Shown here in pieces: positions 35,033 through 37,713 of a DNA stretch of 64,000 nt; within the stretch, counting starts at the first letter, position 1; every line of letters begins with the position of its first letter. Source of the DNA: a virus. The DNA is taken from positions 1 through 64,000 of the IMG/VR virus record IMGVR_UViG_3300010885_076238; one strand, given 5' to 3'. The notes beneath the pieces are model-generated. The model was not told the DNA's origin, did not search any database, and was given only the letters and a program-made list of their open reading frames with translations. A program made the translations under genes and the position numbers.

Positions 35033-35060
35033 TTGACAACAAAAAAAATTCATGTATATT
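35033..35060 (+). promoter_or_regulatory. Sigma70-type promoter of csrA
   Basis: TTGACA and TATATT lie 16 bases apart, with TG before the -10. It is 44 bases upstream of the csrA start. Confidence 0.75.
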
Positions 35061-35103
35061 GTTGTTGCTGTCTAATTTGTTCTCAAGAAAGGAATCTTTT
35101 ACA

Positions 35104-35286
35104 ATGCTTGTTCTTTCAAGGAAGATTGACGAATCTATATTAATTTCTAACAATATCGAATTGATAATTGTTGATATCATTGGAGATAAAGTTAAAATTG
35201 GAATCAATGCTCCGAAAGATGTTAGAATTCTAAGATCTGAAATCTATGAAAAATTGTGCAAAAAAAATATTGTGCAAAAAAAATAA
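35104..35286 (+). CDS. csrA: CsrA-family RNA-binding translational regulator (copy 1)
   Basis: It starts MLVLSRKIDESI, the standard CsrA N-terminus, and continues with IELIIVDIIGDKVKIGINAP and a VRILRSEIYE helix. At 60 residues it is complete. CsrA dimers bind GGA motifs near ribosome-binding sites and block or stabilise mRNAs. An upstream in-frame start would add an atypical extension and was rejected. A second copy lies at 43508-43705. Confidence 0.95.
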   Translation: MLVLSRKIDESILISNNIELIIVDIIGDKVKIGINAPKDVRILRSEIYEKLCKKNIVQKK

Positions 35287-36307: not shown

Positions 36308-36907
36308 ATGAAAATAAAAATTGGTTTAAAGCAGAAGACGGTTCAGTCAGTTGAAATCGCAGAAAAAATAAGCATCAAACCCAAGGAAATTTCTTGTGGG
36401 GTTGATGAACAAAAAAAATCTATTTCAAATGAATTAAATAATTCTGATATTGAAGAGCATATCAGACAATATTTCTTAACTCCCTTAAAAGAATTGATCA
36501 AAAATGAAGGAGTTAGCAATGGCTACTTAATTGCCAACGTGGAGGCTTTAGGTGTTATCAAAAAAATTATAAAATCCATACTAAAACAGAAGAAAATTTC
36601 AGTTATAGAAATTTTAGAAAAGGCCGCATTCGAAGAATATGGAGAATATAAAGAATCTGATGAGCCTGGAGAATATGAATCAGAAGAAGAATCTGTGGAA
36701 TATGAGTCCGAGGAATCTGACGAAGATGAGTCTGAAGCATCTGTAGAATCTTCTATTGTTCAAAAAGCCGTACTTGTCACCGAAGAGGAAGAAGAGGAAG
36801 AGGAAGAAGAGGAAGAAGAGGAAGAGGAAATTGACGAGTACGACTTGGAAGAGGCGAGAGAATGCGATTCATACTGTTTTAATGAAGATGAAAGTATGGA
36901 CGGATGA
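36308..36907 (+). CDS. Acidic, poly-Glu protein
   Basis: About 110 helical residues are followed by repeated ESEEE/YESEE units and 16 consecutive Glu near residue 160, ending in a Cys-containing tail. The strong acidic run recalls DNA mimics or histone/RNA-binding chaperones, which is conjecture. It has its own good promoter and overlaps tilS by ATGA. Confidence 0.65.
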   Translation: MKIKIGLKQKTVQSVEIAEKISIKPKEISCGVDEQKKSISNELNNSDIEEHIRQYFLTPLKELIKNEGVSNGYLIANVEALGVIKKIIKSILKQKKISVIEILEKAAFEEYGEYKESDEPGEYESEEESVEYESEESDEDESEASVESSIVQKAVLVTEEEEEEEEEEEEEEEEIDEYDLEEARECDSYCFNEDESMDG

Positions 36908-37542
36908 TCAAAATAATTAAGGAAATTTTACCTAAAGATAAAAAATATTATTTTGCTGTTTCTATGGGGGTTGATAGTGTAGCTGCATATCTCTTTTTGA
37001 GGTCAAAAGGCTATAAGGTTACCCCTGTTCATTTTAATCATAAACTAAGAATTCAAAATGATCTGATGGAGCAGAAGTATATTGAATTATGTAAATTTAC
37101 CAATGTTGATCCAATTGTTGGACATGGCGAAAATTTAACAACAGAATCCGATTGTAGGAATGCAAGGTTGAATTTTTATAAACAATTTTGCCACAATGAA
37201 ACAATAATTACGGCTCATCATATGAACGATTGGATCGAGAGCTATTTATTAAACTGCTTCAGAGGTCAGCCAAATAACGATTGCATCGAATTAACTAGTG
37301 AATTCAAAAGCTTTAAAATAATTCATCCATTCCTTCTATCCAGAAAAAAAGATTTTGAACAGTATCTTGAACGCAACAACTATTTGTGCTATACTGTTCA
37401 AGACGAAACCAATTTCATTTGCAAAGGAAGTAGAAGAAATTGGATTCGGAAGCAGATTTTTCCTGAGATGATTAAAAATAAATTGTCTTTAGAAAAATTT
37501 GCTGAAAGAAAAATAAAAGGAGATTTAGTAGAAAGCATTTGA
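36904..37542 (+). CDS. tilS: tRNA(Ile)-lysidine synthase, short form
   Basis: This enzyme adds lysine to C34 of tRNA-Ile(CAU), changing its reading from AUG to AUA. The PP-loop SMGVDS is at 20-25 (usual SGGxDS), then VHFNHKLR, RNARLNFY and TAHHMNDWIESYLLNCFRG, all TilS landmarks. At 212 residues it has only the N-terminal catalytic domain. A CAU tRNA begins 25 bases downstream. Confidence 0.9.
   Translation: MIKIIKEILPKDKKYYFAVSMGVDSVAAYLFLRSKGYKVTPVHFNHKLRIQNDLMEQKYIELCKFTNVDPIVGHGENLTTESDCRNARLNFYKQFCHNETIITAHHMNDWIESYLLNCFRGQPNNDCIELTSEFKSFKIIHPFLLSRKKDFEQYLERNNYLCYTVQDETNFICKGSRRNWIRKQIFPEMIKNKLSLEKFAERKIKGDLVESI
37367..37395 (+). promoter_or_regulatory. Possible promoter inside tilS
   Basis: TTGAAC and TATACT lie 17 bases apart within tilS, about 170 bases before the tRNA; it could transcribe the tRNA alone. 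Confidence 0.4.
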
Positions 37543-37547
37543 ATAAG

Positions 37548-37666
37548 GTAGCGGAATCAAATACATTGGGCCATTAACTCAGCTGGTTAGAGTGTCAAAC
37601 TCATAATTTGAAAGTCCTTGGTTCGAATCCAAGATGGCCCACTTCAGTCACTTTTGATTCCTCTAC
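37548..37666 (+). other. Inverted repeat flanking the tRNA
   Basis: GTAGcGGAATCAAA at 37548-37561 pairs with TTTGATTCCtCTAC at 37653-37666, 13 of 14 bases. It would close a stem around the whole tRNA precursor, like RNase III-type processing stems. Confidence 0.6.
37568..37641 (+). tRNA. tRNA with anticodon CAU, probably tRNA-Ile2
   Basis: It is a full cloverleaf: acceptor GGGCCAT/ATGGCCC, D-stem ACTC/GAGT, anticodon stem TCAAA/TTTGA with loop CTCATAA, T-stem CTTGG/CCAAG and discriminator A. CCA is not encoded. Pairs C4-G69 and C5-G68 are those reported to favour TilS over tRNA-Met, and tilS is adjacent. Elongator tRNA-Met remains the alternative. Confidence 0.92.
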
Positions 37667-37713
37667 TTTTATCAAAATGAACTTCTCTGACTTCTAATTT
37701 TTTCACTTAGATA

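Follow-up and report, generated by a model that had tools for sequence, protein, structure and literature searches.

Bacterial TilS enzymes have been described in two types. Type I carries two C-terminal domains, CTD1 and CTD2, and type II carries CTD1 only; CTD2, which is required for activity or selectivity in the bacterial type I enzymes, contacts the acceptor stem of the tRNA in E. coli and reads its pairs C4-G69 and C5-G68 (PMC12514573). The same paper calls these two pairs dominant identity elements in E. coli and cites earlier mutagenesis for the statement. Known TilS enzymes separate tRNA-Ile2 from tRNA-Met via their C-terminal domains. Determinants have been listed for E. coli tRNA-Ile2 (PMC12069591, PMC12514573), and the stem determinants are kept among gammaproteobacteria and not in other bacteria (PMC12069591).

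Published work already covers TilS and tRNA-Ile2 encoded by phages, as well as lysidine on a phage-encoded tRNA. TilS has been named in phages MIJ3 and PA5oct (PMC6892783), in Ralstonia phage RsoM2USA (PMC8504454) and in pelagimyophages (PMC7029224); the accessible portions of these reports name the gene and do not describe a pairing with tRNA-Ile2. A lysidine-type tRNA-Ile was proposed for T4-like phages (PMC1524935), and lysidine has been measured on one phage-encoded tRNA(CAU), that of a T4-like vibriophage, according to a review (PMC13191261). In the open-access literature we found no description of a catalytic-domain-only viral TilS clade or of its linkage to tRNA-Ile2.

Here we analyse a viral locus at which both partners occur side by side. 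The window, meaning the whole stretch of DNA analysed, comprises bases 1–64000 of a 204,311-bp virus record with no close DNA-level relative among named phages. Its features are as follows.

36308..36907, + strand: acidic 199-aa ORF upstream of tilS, with a 4-bp stop/start overlap with tilS; no Pfam match
36904..37542, + strand: predicted tilS, N-terminal PP-loop domain only, 212 aa (profiles, AlphaFold2 model, Foldseek); motifs, from an alignment of relatives, PP-loop S20-M-G-V-D-S25, HHMND...E at 105–112 and RRNWIR at 177–182
37553..37561, + strand: 5' arm of an inverted repeat, GGAATCAAA (fold z = -4.4)
37568..37641, + strand: predicted tRNA-Ile2, anticodon CAU, discriminator A73, CCA unencoded (ARAGORN, Rfam, reference profiles)
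37653..37661, + strand: 3' arm of the inverted repeat, TTTGATTCC, pairing with the 5' arm GGAATCAAA

A short TilS-type protein

The 212-aa ORF matched Pfam ATP_bind_3 (PF01171) far above the cut-off (4.8e-23), and it matched TilS_N (TIGR02432) at 3.7e-26 with 92.2 bits, 1.4 bits below the 93.6 cut-off. Its AlphaFold2 model (pLDDT 95, pTM 0.90) is predicted to have the catalytic-domain fold of solved TilS; the top PDB matches in Foldseek were TilS, the best being 2E21 (E 1.8e-11, TM 0.77–0.78 by query), and the nearest solved structures are TilS from Aquifex, E. coli and Geobacillus. These matches identify the ORF at 36904–37542 as a TilS-type PP-loop protein, and the short TilS gene reported in a preliminary description to lie directly upstream of the tRNA is indeed there, 25 bp away. 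Its start codon overlaps the stop codon of the gene before it (ATGA), and because of this 4-bp overlap tilS is probably translationally coupled to the 199-aa ORF.

Models of CTD1 and CTD2 (PF09179, PF11734) gave zero matches across the whole 204-kb record, and control genomes were positive. The window protein lacks the CTD1 plus CTD2 of type I and equally the CTD1 without CTD2 of type II, since it stops after the PP-loop domain. The viral loci collected share this brevity: 242 of 242 encode proteins of 190–259 aa, whereas the bacterial relatives that were measured to their stop codons run, all but one, for 276–458 residues from the start of the match. Phage TilS is the catalytic domain alone, shorter than types I and II. 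In a quick, midpoint-rooted tree, with bacterial rows picked by similarity, viral TilS grouped apart from 40 bacterial TilS (99% SH-aLRT), save one protein on a very long branch (L102), and on this tree phage TilS forms essentially one clade. The tilS gene of 'Listeria phage' LM 4-11-1 was set aside as bacterial contamination, because it is full-length and terminates a wastewater contig that is unverified. Two records named Listeria phage (OR846773.1 and OR849140.1; L015) appear to be bacterial contigs carrying full-length tilS.

The preliminary description had proposed that the assignment would fall if the ATP-pyrophosphatase residues proved to be missing on inspection of more genomes. Across relatives they are conserved, with one exception: the subclade of the window uniformly has Met for the first Gly of SGGxDS, a position filled by Gly or Ser in other phage members (SGG or SSG). 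The S, second G, D and S of the loop are invariant. Because the loop reads SMGVDS instead of SGGxDS, we file the window protein as a TilS-like variant and not as a strict equivalog. Twenty residues are invariant in 29 diverse phage members: S20, G22, D24, S25, H46, E81, R88, T103, H105, D109, E112, G121, P142, F143, K148, D167, N170, R178, N179 and R182.

A tRNA of the Ile2 type

The tRNA, which begins 25 bp 3' of the end of tilS, scored 70.7 bits with the Rfam tRNA model. Its acceptor stem, GGGCCAT/ATGGCCC followed by A73, contains the pairs C4-G69 and C5-G68, which together with the CAU anticodon are present as first described. ARAGORN labels it Met(cat). Because ARAGORN gives Met to every CAU tRNA, we assembled 95 reference CAU tRNAs from E. 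coli and bacterial genomes (30 Ile2, 36 Met, 29 fMet). An unpaired 1-72 identified fMet; position 32 of the loop and the type of acceptor separated Met from Ile2, with the annotated E. coli pair as the anchor. As these labels are partly acceptor-based, scoring was repeated without the acceptor; leave-one-out labelling was correct for 95/95 when all positions counted and for 94/95 when the acceptor was left out. The window tRNA scored as Ile2 over Met by +60.7 bits and over fMet by +86.7 bits when all positions were used, and by +18.3 and +32.5 bits, respectively, without the acceptor stem. A high-scoring call of elongator Met, which had been named beforehand as a possible refutation, was therefore not what the profile returned. 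The row of this run for a relative with a split tRNA (L076), in which the intron was omitted and one T-loop letter altered for parsing, contributes no figure.

Among references labelled partly by acceptor type, 25 of the 30 bacterial Ile2 tRNAs have C4-G69 and 23 of the 30 have C4-G69 together with C5-G68; neither the single pair nor the combination is present in any of the 65 Met or fMet tRNAs. The window tRNA has the E. coli determinants U33, C34, A37, C4-G69 and C5-G68; at the position of the determinant G27-U43 it has U27-A43. Judged by these profiles and determinants, it is a tRNA-Ile2, neither Met nor fMet, and its C34 is the expected site of lysidine. An origin from tRNA-Lys, raised by the top phage blastn matches (Proteus phage tRNA-Lys(CUU), 82%), was dropped because the tRNA-Lys that this genome encodes shares only 62% identity with it and because the profile favours Ile2 by a wide margin.

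An inverted repeat (GGAATCAAA/TTTGATTCC) with an extension surrounds the tRNA (window 37547–37670; fold z = -4.4), and is perhaps a processing stem. Two relatives (L068, L066) have unrelated 14-bp repeats at the equivalent place. Such repeats were rejected as a conserved part of the locus, being clear in the window and these two relatives and not in most others.

Recurrence of the tilS-tRNA(CAU) linkage

When the 242 viral TilS were clustered at 70% identity, a CAU tRNA lay within 1 kb of tilS in 24 of the 62 resulting clusters; the next anticodon reached 7. Comparing CAU with other anticodons, near and far from tilS, gave Fisher p = 1.7e-8 at 1 kb and 1.9e-10 at 100 bp. The pairing is beyond chance. 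All 24 paired CAU tRNAs are on the tilS strand, 13 upstream and 11 downstream, and by profile the nearest paired tRNAs are Ile2 in 22 cases, Met in 2 and fMet in 0. Three loci (L480, L413, L429) have tilS with two CAU tRNAs within 350 bp upstream. In PA5oct and two huge phages no CAU tRNA directly adjoins tilS. The state of adjacency changes about 11 times on the tree, at least 7 of these changes being forced by well-supported branches, so the adjacency is not a single frozen arrangement.

Both acceptor pairs are kept in 9 of the 24 paired phage tRNAs, and 15 of 24 lack one or both; the recurrent element of these tRNAs is the loop CTCATAA. These counts bear on the role first given to C4-G69 and C5-G68, as the features by which TilS tells tRNA-Ile2 from tRNA-Met. 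The pairs hold up as a good marker of tRNA type. Their E. coli reader, CTD2, is missing from the protein and from the whole genome, so they mark the type of the tRNA and are not the enzyme's handle as in E. coli. With no C-terminal domains and with the pairs often lost, substrate choice is not E. coli-like, and the anticodon stem-loop is probably what is read. The main interpretation of the preliminary description is supported, and its recognition argument is corrected.

Group I introns are known to interrupt a bacterial tRNA-Ile(CAU), that of Azoarcus. In at least one further cluster the CAU tRNA paired with tilS is interrupted by such an intron: in two relatives (L069/L070:5671-5935) the tRNA directly 3' of tilS carries an intron after the anticodon (Rfam group I, 59.2 bits), the 5' exon ending in CAU, a matching GUG lying inside the intron and the last intron base being G. 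A third genome (G003, L554:9389-9685) has a CAU tRNA split in the same way about 12 kb from tilS (Rfam group I, 64.3 bits). In L076 (5668-5953) ARAGORN labels the tRNA adjoining tilS as Lys with an intron, and the intron did not reach the Rfam cut-off. Since group I introns end in G, we read this gene as ...ACT|intron|CATAA..., that is, as a putative CAU tRNA split between U33 and C34. The CAU tRNA is retained in relatives even where a group I intron interrupts it. Further Rfam group I introns occur in G003 in tRNAs that ARAGORN labels Gln and Leu (L552:3920-4198 and L553:1615-1888). As in Azoarcus, the introns of L069, L070 and G003 follow the CAU anticodon; in contrast to Azoarcus, they interrupt phage tRNAs, the insertion in L076 is elsewhere (U33/C34), and the copy in the window is intronless.

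AUA codons and other tRNA genes

Heavy use of AUA had been anticipated for these A+T-rich genes. Counted over 153 long ORFs, AUA occurs in this 204-kb genome 29.0 times per 1000 codons and makes up 36.8% of Ile codons, second only to AUU among them. Judging by how often each third base is used in the Pro, Thr, Ala, Val and Gly codons of that table, a share of about 38.5% would be expected; AUA is therefore not avoided and is used as composition predicts. The genome also encodes a tRNA-Ile(UAU) with U37 (L007:314-387; record 144314-144387), and this tRNA could read AUA too. The tilS-bearing huge phages LR745206 and LR756502 likewise have a tRNA-Ile(UAU). Of the earlier proposal that lysidine would let the phage read AUA, what stands is that the pair could serve this purpose; AUA decoding need not rest on the pair alone, given the tRNA-Ile(UAU) and the TilS that bacterial hosts normally possess, and AUA may have readers other than the CAU tRNA.

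In total the genome has 14 tRNA genes and a tmRNA; the predicted tmRNA gene is at L009:864-1213, and Rfam tmRNA matches are also found in the relatives L069 and G003 (L553). The window further encodes an RNA ligase (PF09414, 35501–36151), 0.75 kb upstream of tilS and possibly concerned with tRNA repair, and at 35059–35286 a CsrA-like regulator (PF02599, 6.2e-22), here in a phage.

A probable dedicated AUA-decoding pair and its alternatives

We consider it probable that the phage has a gene pair dedicated to decoding AUA: a minimal TilS and, directly downstream on the same strand, the tRNA-Ile2 that would be its substrate. The two genes would be expressed together. The small TilS would bind ATP in its PP-loop, activate C34 of the phage tRNA-Ile2 and join lysine to it, forming lysidine, whereupon the tRNA would switch from a Met acceptor reading AUG to an Ile acceptor reading AUA. 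With no C-terminal domains, the enzyme would select its substrate mainly via the anticodon stem-loop. Most likely the window TilS lysidinylates its own tRNA-Ile2 and reads mainly the anticodon region. The recurrent pairing suggests that phages bring their own AUA-reading kit and do not rely on the host.

Phage TilS might instead chiefly top up lysidine on host tRNA-Ile2, the adjoining phage tRNA being just one more substrate. In 38 of the 62 clusters no CAU tRNA is annotated within 1 kb of tilS (one of these 38 has the intron-split CAU tRNA), and in one genome (G015) no CAU tRNA was found in the scanned 198 of 236 kb, introns included. We nevertheless think a chief role on host tRNA unlikely, given the strong local linkage to CAU, always on the same strand, and the presence of a CAU tRNA somewhere in 14 of the 15 tilS-bearing virus records of at least 180 kb, split genes counted, G015 being the exception.

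There is a slighter chance that this PP-loop protein catalyses a different reaction, such as thiolation or another modification of C34 or U34, or that it has lost activity. Its first PP-loop Gly is Met, the first Asp of HHxDD is Asn, and TtuA-type thiolases come next after TilS among the fold matches of the model. Yet Aquifex TilS has the similar HHLND, other phage members keep an SGG or SSG loop, the phage family has no invariant Cys as would befit an Fe-S thiolase, and the partner tRNA is of the Ile2 type. In three diverged pairs with computable dS, where dS is already 1.2–1.7, the dN/dS of tilS is 0.13–0.16; the gene appears to be under purifying selection, which argues for a kept function, short of proving a reaction, and against loss of activity.

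Alternatively, the pair could be a counter-defence, supplying a replacement tRNA-Ile2 and its modifying enzyme against host tRNA cleavage or depletion. The RNA ligase gene nearby and the set of 14 tRNA genes plus tmRNA would suit this, but no nuclease or defence target was identified, and we regard it as very improbable on its own, while noting that it could explain why the pair is carried and in that sense is compatible with a dedicated AUA-decoding function. That accident placed an elongator or initiator Met tRNA beside tilS is scarcely credible, since the Met label of ARAGORN is common to all CAU tRNAs and is opposed by the profile margin over Met, by the absence of C4-G69 from every Met and fMet reference, and by the recurrence of the linkage.

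We know of no biochemistry for any catalytic-domain-only TilS. Tentatively, and with some doubt, we speculate that these phage proteins form a third, minimal class of TilS with substrate rules of its own, reading the anticodon region only, and that each with its partner tRNA may be an AUA-decoding unit largely orthogonal to host TilS and to host tRNA-Ile2 and tRNA-Met, kept across phages despite the self-splicing introns that invade the tRNA. If so, enzymes reduced to the catalytic domain would reveal how little the choice between tRNA-Ile2 and tRNA-Met requires, phages would bring a tRNA-recoding enzyme as well as the tRNA, and the pairs would be small, testable and possibly orthogonal tools to control AUA decoding.

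Comparison with known systems

The phage protein shares the N-terminal PP-loop catalytic fold of type II TilS from Aquifex aeolicus and Mycobacterium smegmatis (PDB 1WY5, 2E21, 2E89), the HHxND motif of the Aquifex enzyme (HHMND in the window) and the RNxIR of type II near the end of the domain. It differs in that type II, about 317 aa long in Aquifex, includes CTD1, whereas the phage form has 212 aa, no CTD1 and SMG for SGG. With type I TilS of E. coli and Geobacillus kaustophilus (PDB 1NI5, 3A2K) it shares a homologous catalytic domain, and it is without CTD1 and without the CTD2 that touches the acceptor stem. Among named phage proteins, the TilS of PA5oct and MIJ3, about 203 aa, belongs to the same viral clade; in PA5oct the end of the tRNA array is about 5.6 kb from tilS, compared with the 25-bp gap in the window. 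ORF84 of RsoM2USA has 349 aa, compared with 212 aa here. Like the T4-like phages (PMC1524935), the window phage has a CAU tRNA bearing Ile-type signatures; unlike those phages, which rely on the TilS of the host, it carries its own TilS beside the tRNA.
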